From Mumia sp. ZJ1417 (GTDB lineage: Bacteria > Actinomycetota > Actinomycetes > Propionibacteriales > Nocardioidaceae): DNA of 64,000 nt. A model generated the notes under the pieces. It worked only from the letters and a program-made list of their open reading frames with translations. It was not told the DNA's origin and did not search any database. Below are positions 52,274-56,709 of the stretch, in pieces. The stretch covers positions 2,542,001 to 2,606,000 of the forward strand of contig NZ_CP059901.1 in assembly GCF_014127285.1 (NCBI RefSeq). The letters run 5' to 3'. A program made the translations under genes and the position numbers. Position 1 is the first letter of the stretch. The number at the start of each line of letters is the position of its first letter.

Positions 52274-52987
52274 TCAGTCGGGATCGGGGACGTCCGCAAA
52301 GGGTTCGTGGTCCGAGCCCGCCGTACCGGCCCGCTTCAACGGCCACACCACGACCCAAGCCTTGCCGAGCACCGCGTCCGTACGGACGAAGCCGCCGCCC
52401 GGCCCGCCCTGGTGAGCGCGCGAGTCGGTCGAGTTGCCACGGTTGTCGCCCATCAGCCACAGCCGCCCCTCGGGGACCACCACGTCGAAGCGTGCGTCGG
52501 CGGTGGCAGCGGGGTCGGGCACGTACGGCTCGTCGATCGAGACGCCGTTGATCTGGAGCCGCCCGTCGGCGTCGCAGCACACCACACGGTCGCCGCCGAC
52601 GCCGATGACGCGCTTCACGAGGTGACCGCCGGTCGGGAACAGGCCGAAGACCGACAGCACCTGCTGGACGGGGCCGACCTCCTCCTCGTACCCGACGCCG
52701 AGCCAGTCGCCCGGATCGTCGAACACGACGACGTCACCACGCTGCGGCTCGCCCGCCCAGTACGACACCTTCTGGACGAGGATCCGGTCGTCGACCTGGA
52801 GGGTGTCCTCCATCGACCCGGACGGGATCCAGAACGCCTGCACGAGGAACGTCTTGACGATCAGCGCAAGCACCAGCGCGACCACGACCAGCAGGATTGT
52901 CTCCTGCCAGAGGGGTAGGGGTTTGCGCTTCGCCTTGCCGGAACGGCCTGTGGCCGACGTCTCGGCGGTCTCTTCGTGCGATGTCAC
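52274..52987 (-). CDS. lepB: Signal peptidase I (second of two)
   Basis: Signal peptidase I cuts signal peptides of exported proteins outside the membrane. The 237-residue protein has a polar start, one membrane anchor (about 30-50), the catalytic Ser in IPSGSMEDTL, the Lys in LVKRVIGVGGDRV, and GDNRGNSTDSRAH. TAGGCT at 52994-52999 followed after 6 nt by the GTG at 52987 suggests a leaderless transcript and fixes the start; an in-frame GTG 6 nt upstream is the alternative. Its paralog lies 52 nt upstream. Confidence 0.93.
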   Translation of the reverse strand: MTSHEETAETSATGRSGKAKRKPLPLWQETILLVVVALVLALIVKTFLVQAFWIPSGSMEDTLQVDDRILVQKVSYWAGEPQRGDVVVFDDPGDWLGVGYEEEVGPVQQVLSVFGLFPTGGHLVKRVIGVGGDRVVCCDADGRLQINGVSIDEPYVPDPAATADARFDVVVPEGRLWLMGDNRGNSTDSRAHQGGPGGGFVRTDAVLGKAWVVVWPLKRAGTAGSDHEPFADVPDPD

Positions 52988-53039
52988 GTCCACAGCCTAG
53001 CGCCGCGCTCCACGCGCACTGCGGCGCGTCGACCTGGCG

Positions 53040-53825
53040 TCAGTCGAGCGAGGCGAACGCCCCGGGGTCGTGCAGAACAGCACGGTCCTTCCACGGCCAG
53101 ACCACGAACGCGACCTTGCCGACCACCCTGTCGTCCGGAACGTAGCCGCCGCCCGGAGAGTCCATGTGAGCCCGCGAGTCGGCGGAGTTGCCGCGGTTGT
53201 CCCCCATCACCCAGAGGTAGCCGTCGGGGACGGTGACGTCGAAGGGGAGACGCGCCGTCGCAGAGGCGTCCTTGACGTACGGCTCCTCGATCGCGACCCC
53301 GTTGACCTCGATGCGACCGCCGGTGTCGCAGCACTTCACCGTGTCGCCGCCGACACCGATGACGCGCTTCACCAGATGGCCGCCGGACGGATACAGCCCT
53401 GCCGTCGACAGCAGCTTCTGGGCGGCGTTCGTCGGGTCGTCGAACCCACCCGACCCGAGCCACCCGCCCGGGTCCTCGAAGACGACGACCTCGCCGCGGT
53501 GCGGGTCACGTCCCCAGTAGGACACCTTCTGGACCACGATCCGGTCCTGCGCACCGTCCGGGTTGCCGGTGAGGGTCGGCTCCATCGACTCCGACGGGAC
53601 ATAGAACGTCTGGAGGAACAGCGACTTGACGACGAGCGAGAGCAGCAGCGCCACCACAAGCAGCGCGACGACCTCGAGCCAGAGCGGGACGGCACGGTCG
53701 CCCCAGCGACCCACCACCGTCCGTACACGCGGACGCACCGGGCTGCCCGTCGTACGGGCTGCCCGGTGCGTCCCCGGTGCTACGTCGTCGGGCCGATCCG
53801 CAGATCGGCCAGCGCGCTCATCCAC
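53040..53825 (-). CDS. lepB: Signal peptidase I (first of two)
   Basis: The protein of up to 261 residues has an anchor (WLEVVALLVVALLLSLVVKSLF), catalytic Ser in VPSESMEPTL, Lys in LVKRVIGVGGDTV, and GDNRGNSADSRAH. The GTG at 53825 has a GGGGGG ribosome binding site. However, the first 38 codons look poorly coding and hold two strong hairpins, so GTGs at 53738 or 53717 are realistic alternatives. The two LepB copies share the C-terminal half and have diverged in the N-terminus. Confidence 0.9.
   Translation of the reverse strand: MDERAGRSADRPDDVAPGTHRAARTTGSPVRPRVRTVVGRWGDRAVPLWLEVVALLVVALLLSLVVKSLFLQTFYVPSESMEPTLTGNPDGAQDRIVVQKVSYWGRDPHRGEVVVFEDPGGWLGSGGFDDPTNAAQKLLSTAGLYPSGGHLVKRVIGVGGDTVKCCDTGGRIEVNGVAIEEPYVKDASATARLPFDVTVPDGYLWVMGDNRGNSADSRAHMDSPGGGYVPDDRVVGKVAFVVWPWKDRAVLHDPGAFASLD
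53731..53810. terminator. Two strong hairpins after rplS
   Basis: Segment 53731-53773 has 13 perfect bp (GGACGCACCGGGC), a mismatch, 6 more bp and a 3-nt loop. Segment 53791-53810 has 8 perfect bp (GGCCGATC) and a 4-nt loop. They lie 34-114 nt beyond the rplS stop but inside the longest lepB reading frame. They may terminate or attenuate rplS transcripts. Confidence 0.6.
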
Positions 53826-53844
53826 AGTCGCCCCCCGGCACTGC

Positions 53845-54195
53845 TCAGGACTCGCGCTTCTCCTTGATCTTGGCGGCCTTGCCGCGGAGGTTGCGCAGGT
53901 AGTAGAGCTTCGCGCGACGGACATCGCCGCGGGTCGCGACCTCGATCTTCTCGATGATCGGCGTGTGGAGCGGGAAGGTCCGCTCGACACCCACGCCGAA
54001 GCTCACCTTGCGAACGGTGAACGTACGGCCGACGCCGGAGCCCTGGATGCGGATGGCAACACCCTGGAACACCTGGACGCGCGAGCGGTTGCCCTCGATC
54101 ACCTTCACGTGGACCTTGACGGTGTCGCCTGCGCGGAACTCCGGGACGTCGTCGCGGAGCGACTGGCTCGCGACGGCATCGACTACGTTGGTCAT
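53845..54195 (-). CDS. rplS: 50S ribosomal protein L19
   Basis: The 116-residue L19 contacts 23S rRNA at the 30S-50S interface. It has [43 protein letters not shown]-type strands, [16 protein letters not shown] and [30 protein letters not shown] ribosome binding site precedes the ATG at 54195, and an out-of-frame ATG lies 5 nt upstream. A structured leader precedes it. Confidence 0.98.
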
Positions 54196-54342
54196 CTCAT
54201 CTCTTCCTCGTCAGTGCCACAGGTCACCCACGACATGTGCGGTGTGCGAATGCTAGGACGGTGCTGCGAGCCGTCGCATCGCGACGGTCTGGCGGCTCGA
54301 CACCCCTGTGGCAGCAGAGCCCAGCACCGACTCACCAGTCTG
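54196..54342 (-). promoter_or_regulatory. rplS promoter and structured leader, possible pseudoknot
   Basis: CAGACT on the minus strand (54337-54342) is a likely -10, giving a 135-nt leader. Stem 1 pairs 54322-54329 with 54259-54266 (8 bp, CGGTGCTG). It encloses a long hairpin at 54267-54299. A 9-nt piece in the stem-1 loop (54305-54313, TGCCACAGG) is fully complementary to 54215-54223, next to the ribosome binding site. Together they would form a pseudoknot, a shape used for ribosomal-protein autoregulation. No known L19 leader motif was matched. Confidence 0.5.
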
Positions 54343-54389
54343 CCACACCCACCCTCGCGGCCGTTAATCGCCGTCGGCCTGGCGCAGGA

Positions 54390-54455
54390 GGGGTCCAGCA
54401 CCGCGTCTCGCGGCATCACCCCCGTTGATGTCGACGACCCGCCGTGCTGGACCCC
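54390..54455. other. 66-nt branched inverted repeat in the rplS-luxR gap
   Basis: Perfect 12-bp arms (GGGGTCCAGCAC and complement) enclose two small hairpins: CCGCG-TCT-CGCGG at 54401-54413, and CATCA/TGATG with a 7-nt loop at 54414-54430. The result is a three-way junction if transcribed. It lies in the 430-nt gap between divergent rplS and the LuxR-type gene, outside both predicted transcripts. The rest of the gap (54456-54588) shows no other feature. Confidence 0.5.
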
Positions 54456-54588
54456 GCTGCGAGCGTAGGACAAACAAAGGTTGCGACGAAATACGTAAGG
54501 GTACGTAGGCGAGGGCGGTCGCCCGCGGCAGGTCTCCGTCCGGCGTCTCATTCACATGCTCGGTCACGGTGCCCCAAAACGGCTTCGT

Positions 54589-54612
54589 TACGCTCACGCC
54601 ATGAGCACGTGA
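54589..54612 (+). promoter_or_regulatory. -10 element and three-codon leaderless upstream ORF
   Basis: TACGCT at 54589-54594 is followed after 6 nt by ATG AGC ACG TGA at 54601-54612. If transcription starts at the ATG, the mRNA opens with a three-codon leaderless ORF just before the ribosome binding site (AAGGGGGAA) of the LuxR-type gene. Translational coupling is possible but unproven. Confidence 0.35.
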
Positions 54613-54626
54613 AGGGGGAACACATC

Positions 54627-55445
54627 GTGCCGGAGTCCACACGCTGGATCAAGGTCGCTTCGTCGGTCCTCCTCGAGGACGACCCGACGGCGGCGCGCCT
54701 CTGCCTCACCGACCACCTGCTGAGCGAGTTCGACGCTCGCGCAGGTGCTCGTGTGACGTACGACCAACGGTCGAGGACGCTGTCGCTCCACGGATTTCCG
54801 CAGGACGTCGGGTTCGACGCCCGCCGCTGGCCGTACGGGGTCCGGACGCTTGAGCAGACCCATCCGCTGCTCAAGCACTACCTCCGTACGGGGTCGCTCG
54901 AACCGCGCATGCTCCTCGGTCCCGGACAGACCTCCCGCATGCTCCCCGCGCCGCTCGTCAGCCTCCTGCGCTCGCTCGACCTCGGGGTCCACCAGATGGC
55001 CATCCCGATCCGCAACGAGCCGGGCGCACTGATCGAGGGGTACGTGCTGGTCCGCGACGAGCCGTTCCCGCACTGGGCGCTGCCGCGCGTGAGGGCCCTC
55101 CATGCATTCGTACGGGGTCTTGAGGTGCACCTGCGGCTTCTCACGGCCACCACGGCGATGACAGCACGAACGGCCGAGGACGAGGCCGGGCTGACGCCGC
55201 GGGAGCGCACCATCCTCGCGATGGTGGCCGAGAGCCGCAAGGCGGAGTCGATCGGGCGCAGCCTCGGCATCTCCGCACGGACGGTGCACAAGCACCTCGA
55301 GAACGTCTACCGCAAGCTCGGGGTCAGCGACCGTGTCGCTGCCGTGACCTCCGCGCACCGCCGCGGCCTGGTGCTGCCGCACGGCGAGGCCTCGAGCGAC
55401 AGGAGCCGGCTCGATCCGGCGGACGATCTCCCCGCGCCACGCTGA
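54627..55445 (+). CDS. LuxR-type transcriptional regulator with unrecognised N-terminal domain
   Basis: The 272-residue protein has a C-terminal LuxR helix-turn-helix (LTPRERTILAMVAESRKAES, RSLGISARTVHKHLENVYRK, LGVSDRVAAVTSA). The N-terminal 185 residues are of a mixed alpha/beta pattern and may bind a ligand, like GAF or PAS domains, but match no family I can name. No receiver domain is present, so it is not a typical response regulator. GTG start 54627 has a strong ribosome binding site. It interrupts the otherwise minus-strand rpsP-to-xerC region. Confidence 0.85.
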   Translation: MPESTRWIKVASSVLLEDDPTAARLCLTDHLLSEFDARAGARVTYDQRSRTLSLHGFPQDVGFDARRWPYGVRTLEQTHPLLKHYLRTGSLEPRMLLGPGQTSRMLPAPLVSLLRSLDLGVHQMAIPIRNEPGALIEGYVLVRDEPFPHWALPRVRALHAFVRGLEVHLRLLTATTAMTARTAEDEAGLTPRERTILAMVAESRKAESIGRSLGISARTVHKHLENVYRKLGVSDRVAAVTSAHRRGLVLPHGEASSDRSRLDPADDLPAPR

Positions 55446-55450
55446 GGCGC

Positions 55451-56173
55451 TCAGGCGTCGGTGTCGGGCGCGAGCAGGTCGGGGCGACGCACGGCAGTGC
55501 GCAAGAGCGCCTGCTCCTTGCGCCACGCGGCGATCCGCCCGTGGTCTCCGGACAGGAGGATCTCGGGCACCTCGTGGTCACGCCAGCGCGCCGGCTTCGT
55601 GTAGACCGGGTACTCGAGGAGCCCGTCCGAGCCGTGCGACTCCTCGGTGAGCGACTCGGGGTTGCCCATGAACCCCGGCAGCAGGCGGATGACGGCCTCG
55701 ATCATCGCGAGCGCGGCCACCTCTCCCCCGTTGAGCACGAAGTCGCCGAGCGAGACCTCCTCGACGCGCATCCGCTCAGAAGCCCAGTCGATGACCCGTT
55801 GGTCGATCCCCTCGTAGCGCCCGCACGCGAAGGCGAGCCACGGCTCCTGAGCCAGGCGCCCCGCGTCGGCCTGCTTGAACGGAGCGCCGGACGGGCTGGG
55901 CACGAGCAGCACGGGACCGTCGACACCGACGGAGTCGCGCCCGGCGGCGAGCACCGCGTCGAGCGCCTCGCCCCAAGGCTCGGGGCGCATCACCATACCG
56001 GCGCCACCGCCGTACGGGGTGTCGTCGACGGTGCGGTGCCGGTCGTGGGTGTGGTCACGCAAGTCGCGGACGTGCAGGTCGAGGAGCCCGCGCTGTCGCG
56101 CCTTGCCCGGGAGCGACAGGTCGAGCGGCGCGAGGTAGTCGGGGAAGATCGTGAGGACGTCGATGCGCATCAT
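55451..56173 (-). CDS. trmD: tRNA (guanine-37-N1)-methyltransferase
   Basis: TrmD methylates G37 next to the anticodon with SAM, preventing frameshifts. The 240-residue SPOUT protein has [41 protein letters not shown], and the knot region [20 protein letters not shown]. The ATG at 56173 shares one nt with the rimM stop. It is convergent with the LuxR-type gene, 5 nt apart. Confidence 0.97.
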
Positions 56174-56709
56174 CAAGGTCCGGCGTCCTCGGACAGCTCG
56201 GGATCGAGCAGTCCCTCGACCGGCGCGACGTGGATCACGCCGGCCGCGAGGTCGACGCTCGTGACGAGTGCCGCGACGAACGGGACGAGCACCTCGACAC
56301 CGTCGGAGCGCTCAACGGCGAGCATGTCCTGAGCCGGGAGGTGCAGGACGTCGCGGACGACGCCGCGGTCGGCTCCCCCGCTCTGCACGCGGAGGTCGAC
56401 CAGCTGGTGGTCGTAGAACTCCTCCGGGTCCTCCGGGCGCTCGGTCACGTCGACGTCGACGACGACCTGCGCGCCGCGGAGCTTCTCTGCGGCCGTACGG
56501 TCGAGGAGCTCGTCGAAGGTGACGAGGAGACGACCCTGGTGCGGGCGGATGGCGCGAATGCGCATCGTACGGGCGGCGTCCGCCTTCGGACGCACCACGA
56601 CCGACGAGCCCGGGGCGAATCGCCTCTCGGGCTCGTCGGTCGTCAGGTCGATGCTGACCTCACCGCGGATGCCGTGCGCACGGCCGATGCGGCCGACGAC
56701 GATCTCCAC
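56173..56709 (-). CDS. rimM: 16S rRNA processing protein RimM
   Basis: RimM binds S19 and helps mature the 30S head. The 178-residue protein has the start [17 protein letters not shown], the RimM N-domain, and a PRC-barrel-like C-domain ([10 protein letters not shown] to [15 protein letters not shown] with GLLDPE). Start is a GTG at 56709. Confidence 0.95.

Follow-up and report, generated by a model that had tools for sequence, protein, structure and literature searches.

A candidate kissing-loop RNA leader upstream of rplS in Mumia and other members of its class

Leaders of ribosomal protein (r-protein) genes are usually feedback sites. Many r-proteins are known to exert feedback on the mRNA that encodes them (PMC8470358, PMC10931766). 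For phyla such as Actinobacteria, a 2021 paper finds almost nothing available on how r-proteins are regulated (PMC8470358), and a 2024 review states that no information exists on the regulation of the trmD operon of Escherichia coli, which holds rplS (PMC10931766).

One of the closest described systems is the L19_leader of Firmicutes (RF00556), which is likewise situated before rplS and is a proposed L19 feedback site; its model comprises 42 positions and has been compared with the leader described here by model match only. Further L19_leader examples have been reported in Flavobacteria (PMC7247131). In the main text of that survey by Eckert and Weinberg, “L19” appears once, for Firmicutes and Flavobacteria, and the available portion of its table lists no L19 motif; the L31 and L17 leader candidates of the same authors are predicted actinobacterial r-protein leaders, however, of other genes (PMC7247131). 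The main texts of two other surveys leave rplS and L19 unmentioned (PMC11109978, PMC2864571).

In Caulobacter, an RNA structure just upstream of rplS affects translation, resembling in this respect the leader proposed here (PMC8144410). A single base change in its conserved hairpin took a reporter from ~11,359 to 2,343 units, while the restoring double change gave ~9,606 units; L19 feedback is raised by the authors as a speculation (PMC8144410). The Caulobacter element is, however, a single hairpin within the 3′ coding end of trmD, raises translation and has 12 nt in common with 23S rRNA (PMC8144410), whereas the present leader, a predicted kissing pair, is separate and lacks significant 23S likeness. 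A comparable actinobacterial system is the mycobacterial rpsO leader, whose regulation by S15 involves a pseudoknot ahead of the start site (PMC8470358, PMC10931766). There, too, a long-range loop pairing precedes the start and serves translational repression, but the protein is a different one (S15), the sequence is different and the described structure is a pseudoknot; a possible kissing-loop form in M. tuberculosis is suggested by the authors (PMC8470358).

Here, we are describing the region before rplS in Mumia sp. ZJ1417, contained in a 64,000-nt stretch of contig NZ_CP059901.1 (“the window”). In Rfam 15, no family reaches its gathering score in the window; a search of 54000–54700 up to E = 10 returns only mir-B6 (twice), snoZ169 and MIR8622, all far under gathering, and 16 loci of other lineages searched up to E = 1 yield two sub-gathering matches, neither of them on the leader. 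Scanned across the whole genome at E ≤ 0.001, RF00556 gives no match, with B. subtilis among the 14 controls being matched, and it gives none in 54000–54700 up to E = 10. An earlier note on this DNA had recognised no described actinobacterial L19 motif, and the literature and Rfam searches agree in finding none; likewise, no report of a kissing-loop rplS leader was found in the literature searched, with most subscription papers lying outside that search.

Layout of the rplS leader

The features of the region, all on the minus strand, are as follows (window coordinates).

53845–54195 (−): rplS, ribosomal protein bL19 (116 aa), open reading frame; the gene following the leader
54203–54209 (−): Shine-Dalgarno (SD) region GAGGAAG, from the sequence; GAGGA core from 54209
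54208–54233 (−): hairpin P3 with loop ACCUGUGG (54224–54217), from comparison over leaders and pair probabilities
54217–54223 (−): 3′ kissing strand CCUGUGG in the P3 loop, from pairing over 120 leaders
54259–54266 (−): 3′ strand CAGCACCG of basal helix P0, perfect partner of 54322–54329; genus level
54271–54287 (−): hairpin P2, CCGUCGC/GCGACGG; genus level, by eye
54294–54321 (−): hairpin P1 with loop UGCCACAGGG (54313–54304), from comparison over leaders
54305–54311 (−): 5′ kissing strand CCACAGG in the P1 loop, from pairing over 120 leaders and two-sided changes over 75
54322–54329 (−): 5′ strand CGGUGCUG of basal helix P0 (= CGGTGCTG of the 8-bp helix below); genus level
54337–54345 (−): extended −10-like element TGGCAGACT; 104 of 120 leaders have such a word ahead of the P1 loop
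54366–54370 (−): CGATT word, 25 nt before the TGG of the −10-like word, from recurrence across leaders

The earlier note had proposed three complementary sets in this leader, and all of them are present in the minus-strand sequence: an 8-bp helix (CGGTGCTG, 54329–54322, with CAGCACCG, 54266–54259), a 9-bp helix (TGCCACAGG, 54313–54305, with CCTGTGGCA, 54223–54215) and, as the outer part of a nested hairpin, a 7-bp helix (CGAGCCG, 54299–54293, with CGGCTCG, 54273–54267). The two 9-bp strands fall into the loops of P1 (54321–54294) and P3 (54233–54208), the latter hairpin being absent from that note. Thus, a long-range pairing beside the ribosome binding site of rplS holds up, being conserved and covarying, while the pseudoknot as drawn gives way to a loop-to-loop relation. 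The closeness of the 9-bp partner to the SD region also holds; the gap, given as 4 nt, is 5 nt when counted to the GAGGA core (54209).

In the window, the P3 stem consists of eight pairs with one G-G mismatch, and its lowest pairs take in G54209 and A54208, with which the SD region begins. The P1 stem is formed by GGCUC/GAGCC with an extension of C-G, G-U and U-G. A kissing duplex would pair seven of the eight P3-loop bases and seven of the ten P1-loop bases. We conclude from comparative sequence analysis that the leader is predicted to consist of two hairpins with kissing loops beside the ribosome landing site, the P1 and P3 stems and the loop pairing presumably being present all at once.

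Taken singly, the window sequence is weak evidence for this architecture, since its helices are only slightly unusual against shuffled leaders and the folding energy is ordinary. When the 140-nt leader was shuffled 1000 times with its dinucleotide content preserved, 5.9% of the shuffles had a helix of at least 9 bp, 2.9% had two helices of at least 8 bp and 5.6% had three helices of at least 7 bp; the folding energy of the window leader (z = 0.09 against shuffles) is uninformative from a single sequence. The minimum-energy fold (−56.3 kcal/mol) is without P1, and enforcing P1 and P3 gives −52.9 kcal/mol at best (kissing pairs excluded from both), and the set P0+P1+P2+P3 without the kissing pairs has −41.3 kcal/mol; the kissing duplex by itself contributes −11.0 kcal/mol. 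In the window ensemble, P2 (pair probability 0.97–1.00) and P3 (0.81–0.87) are likelier than P0 (0.22–0.33), and the five-pair stem of P1 has a probability of 0.32, its three-pair extension one of 0.00–0.01.

Conservation, covariation and spread

The rplS gene has a single match in its own genome and matches in 283 of 296 genomes of the phylum. For comparison, 226 rplS upstream regions were assembled (six from the genus, own genome included, 80 from named genomes, 105 from a sample of the class and 35 from other classes). Two words recur before rplS, namely CTGCCACAGGGG, 82–162 nt upstream of the start, and GACCTGTGGC, 24–38 nt upstream. Leaders were selected by matching each word separately, with up to three and up to two mismatches, so that pairing played no part in the selection. 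By this rule, 123 of the 226 rows were retained, 120 of them distinct (five rows coming from the genus, 62 from named genomes and 53 from the class sample, with none from other classes) and three duplicating another row; the 103 rows dropped either failed the rule or, in the case of L011, had fewer than 200 bases upstream. None of the 35 loci from other classes of the phylum satisfied the rule; L210, from another class, has a looser motif match, but located elsewhere. For the covariation counts, 75 leaders out of these 120 were aligned with MAFFT (A1); cells in these counts stand for sequences, which differ from independent events, lineages being judged by eye.

The loop pairing is the most constant element. 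All seven central bases are paired in 114 of the 120 leaders when G-U is allowed, the remaining six retaining six of seven pairs, and in 105 of the 120 all seven pairs are Watson-Crick. The two strands lie 51 to 134 nt apart. Most kissing pairs are identical in nearly all rows, and when one strand varies, its partner usually follows. Counted along CCACAGG, the third pair changes from A-U to G-C (L080, L108, L178), the fourth from C-G to U-A (L170), the fifth from A-U to G-C (L078, L100, L134, L142) or to C-G (L103, L177, L179), the sixth from G-C to A-U (L088) and the seventh from G-C to A-U (L106, L178). G-U replaces A-U or C-G in L014, L015, L046, L081, L096, L088, L107, L108 and L145. Two departures from pairing occur, namely U-U at the third position in five of the 120 leaders (L103, L169, L176, L177, L179) and C-A at the fifth position in L113. 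The leaders with the U-U carry both A-U and C-G fifth pairs, as if the mismatch had been retained.

In A1, the kissing helix is 99.0% paired, with two-sided changes at five of its seven pairs; P3 is 85.8% paired, and P1 72.4%, with two-sided changes at five of six pairs; such changes occur in all three helices, as expected of a kissing-loop structure. The whole structure is 86.4% paired, compared to 76.6 ± 0.6% in shuffled alignments, has two-sided changes in 16 of 20 pairs (10.7 ± 1.1 in shuffles) and a covariation score of 0.326 (shuffled, 0.157 ± 0.009); none of 500 shuffles matches any of these scores, and slid partners give 36–51% paired. Hence, the 5′ leader of an r-protein gene contains a conserved, covarying predicted RNA structure. 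The earlier note had named the lack of covariation among relatives as a refutation of its helices; for the 9-bp helix, covariation is found, and by sequence comparison this pairing is far beyond chance once relatives are considered.

The two hairpins stand out separately as well. Over the 120 leaders, with seven pairs each, 725 of 840 P3 stem cells are paired, compared to 611 ± 8 after shuffling (0 of 2000 shuffles as high), the stem sequence varying while its pairing is kept, as illustrated by Streptomyces beigongshangae (L058) with GCCGATG-ACCTGTGG-CATCGGC. Slid registers of P3 pair 24–62% of cells; shifting the partners by +3 likewise yields more pairs than in the corresponding shuffles (408 vs. 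391, with 1 of 300 as high), but reaches only 49%, far under the true register. An SD-like word begins 6 nt past CCTGTGGC in 89 of the 120 leaders. For P1, the register with a 10-nt loop pairs 397 of 600 cells (shuffled, 310 ± 9; 0 of 500 as high), and within the genus GGCTC/GAGCC is replaced by GACTC/GAGTC. A P1 with a 7-nt loop (CCCC/GGGG), of which the first pairs can nearly always form, was rejected, with 351 of 600 pairs past the closing one compared to 365 in shuffles, i.e., no excess, as were the other five registers (at best 246 vs. 233, a value reached by 31 of 500 shuffles).

A covariance model (R1) covering P1 and P3 was used to scan 158 genomes of the class. It gives 87 matches, the best 77 of which (E ≤ 4.4e-4) all sit immediately ahead of rplS and on its strand, constituting a consistent link of the strong matches to one r-protein gene, while the 10 weakest (E > 0.001) do not adjoin rplS. 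Since 39 of the 77 strong matches stem from genomes that also supplied training rows, at most 38 are independent, and fewer if named training loci also occur in the sample, with L060 and L105 (G375) apparently being one contig. The strong matches are spread over 21 of the 39 sampled families (counted by hand from sample labels); the other 18 are without a strong match, indicating that the element is dispensable or replaced there. Outside the class, R1 has a single weak match (E 0.006) in 270 genomes, on a contig different from that of the rplS gene. Both genome scans were run with stricter filters (21 and 11 scored candidates per genome), by which weak cases may escape, and R1 fails to recover its own training row L108. 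Named carriers include Nocardioides, an Aeromicrobium metagenome-assembled genome, Kribbella, Streptomyces, Kitasatospora and Jiangella as well as Knoellia, Pedococcus, Flexivirga and Ornithinicoccus; the loci of Blastococcus, Geodermatophilus, Klenkia, Modestobacter and Trujillonella failed the motif rule, as did those of Pseudonocardia, Goodfellowiella and Lentzea.

Promoter and upstream region

Judging by the position of TGGCAGACT, transcription would start near 54330. The CGATT word stands at its spacing from the −10-like word in 53 of 104 leaders, and GGATT does so in 11; the distance between CGATT and TGG in this promoter-like pair (54337–54370) exceeds the usual sigma-70 spacing. The −10-like word is also present at loci without the leader (e.g., L031, L076, L084). 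A scan of 54150–54620 for the sigma-70 consensus finds no promoter, and the same interval contains no terminator-like site, an intrinsic terminator being what a transcription attenuator would require. Competition of the promoter word TGTGGCA (54347–54341) for the P1 loop was considered and rejected as not general, the word lying upstream of the expected start and being unkept in the Streptomyces loci.

Further upstream, an inverted repeat GGGGTCCAGCAC/GTGCTGGACCCC (54390–54455, −) lies just past a second −10-like word, TACGCT (54467–54462). A repeat of 8–14 bp is found near this place in all six genus genomes with differing sequences (e.g., GCCCAGGACCGC/GCGGTCCTGGGC in L006 and GGGGCCGG/CCGGCCCC in L005), and, given this retention, a distal rplS transcript may start with a hairpin. 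The gene neighbourhood, with products named by eye, comprises a TrmD-like ORF (55451–56176, −), between which and rplS lies a LuxR-type regulator ORF (54444–55445, +; start probably further in), and, downstream of rplS, two tandem signal peptidase I-like ORFs (52274–52993 and 53040–53990, −), the second of which overlaps rplS as listed and probably has a later start.

Proposed function and competing explanations

The proposed mechanism would proceed as follows. The rplS mRNA would start near 54330 and carry a structured leader of ~135 nt, in which the hairpins with the P1 loop UGCCACAGGG and the P3 loop ACCUGUGG would form, P3 abutting the start of the SD region (overlapping it in the window). 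CCACAGG and CCUGUGG, seven bases per loop, would then join in an intramolecular kissing complex, which free bL19, when in excess over 23S rRNA, would bind and stabilise. The stabilised complex would place a rigid fold across the site where the 30S subunit lands and, by this, reduce rplS translation. Translation-initiation control is likelier than transcription attenuation given the lack of a terminator-like site in the leader, and attenuation was discarded for the same reason; P3 also keeps an almost constant distance (the 6 nt given above) to the 30S landing site. An L19-stabilised kissing leader lowering rplS initiation is, with moderate confidence, the best explanation of the sequence data; in this, we infer the ligand from gene identity alone, and the effect would be a lowered translation. 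The wider statement that a new family of kissing leaders controls bL19 across much of the class, with a 7-bp tertiary contact at the 5′ edge of the SD sequence, recognised or stabilised by L19, rather than direct SD masking as the switch, is evenly balanced in our estimation. Counting against the L19-stabilised leader are the 18 of 39 families without a strong match, the minimum-energy fold without P1 and the low ensemble probabilities of P1, the U-U and C-A mismatches in six of the 120 leaders, the excess of pairs in the +3 slide of P3, the lack of significant 23S likeness and the Caulobacter hairpin, which aids rplS translation instead of blocking it (PMC8144410).

Mimicry of an rRNA site, which is frequent yet optional in r-protein leaders, was not found in the sequence comparison. 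The candidate GGGTGACCTGTGG matches GGATGACCTGTGG of the own 23S rRNA in 12 of 13 positions, but this score is reached by 179 of 200 shuffled leaders, and the leader strand shifts by compensation in some lineages, breaking the likeness. The longest word common to the 23S locus and the leader has 10 nt, and the local score is 11, compared to a shuffled mean of 11.9. As a side observation, TGACCTGTGG, a part of the P3 hairpin, recurs at 1415–1424 and 2352–2361 of L227 (86 nt before the 23S match and at about 23S position 852), which is not significant.

Among the alternatives, the one that fares best is a real but constitutive kissing-loop RNA, which would keep the SD region free or provide a 30S standby site and would not involve L19 feedback. 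It is suggested by the Caulobacter hairpin, which raises translation from just upstream of rplS (PMC8144410). Furthermore, P3 ends beside the SD region and leaves most of it free, and the comparison with 23S rRNA yielded no mimicry. However, near-invariant, compensating loops over many families exceed what an open SD region would appear to need, and r-protein leaders are generally feedback sites, which together make this explanation rather unlikely.

Less probable still is that the leader senses another input, be it a different r-protein, an assembly factor, magnesium or a small molecule. Kissing loops are often magnesium-dependent, which would fit such a role, but the position of all 77 strong class-sample matches before rplS points to L19 as the specific ligand.

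The fold drawn in the earlier note, i.e., a pseudoknot combining the 8-bp helix, the 9-bp helix and a nested hairpin at 54267–54299, or two exclusive folds, is very unlikely, although all three helices are present and the 8-bp helix is kept in the genus. The latter is unchanged in five of the six genus sequences, and the sixth, L005, can make seven pairs with changed bases (by eye); this helix is supported within the genus only, as basal helix P0. The nested hairpin does not survive as drawn, as the outer helix CGAGCCG/CGGCTCG is not retained in full in the other five genus members (by eye), whereas at the place of P2 a shorter inner hairpin of five to seven pairs can be drawn in all six sequences with changed sequence (by eye). 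Beyond the genus, it is the loop pairing with P1 and P3 that is conserved, and the note's fold without its 9-bp pairs (8 bp, 7 bp and four inner pairs) reaches −26.1 kcal/mol, compared to the above −41.3 kcal/mol of P0+P1+P2+P3, the kissing pairs being left out there as well.

Hardly credible, finally, is a DNA inverted repeat TGTGGCA/TGCCACA read by a transcription factor or RNA polymerase with incidental RNA pairing: many Nocardioidaceae promoters do also carry TGTGGCA in their −10 region, but the strand spacing is variable (see above), both strands are inside covarying hairpin loops, and the promoter word of Streptomyces, TGGAAGAAT, is non-complementary.

Regulation of the kissing-loop leader by L19 is plausible from these sequence comparisons, and the leader probably lets the cell tune the amount of L19. 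It would add an L19 operator that is, by model match, unrelated to the one of Firmicutes. Its most conserved part is the loop-loop contact. It is a concrete and widely conserved candidate with a defined 7-bp contact open to breaking and restoring, and its presence in Streptomyces renders it testable in ordinary laboratory strains.
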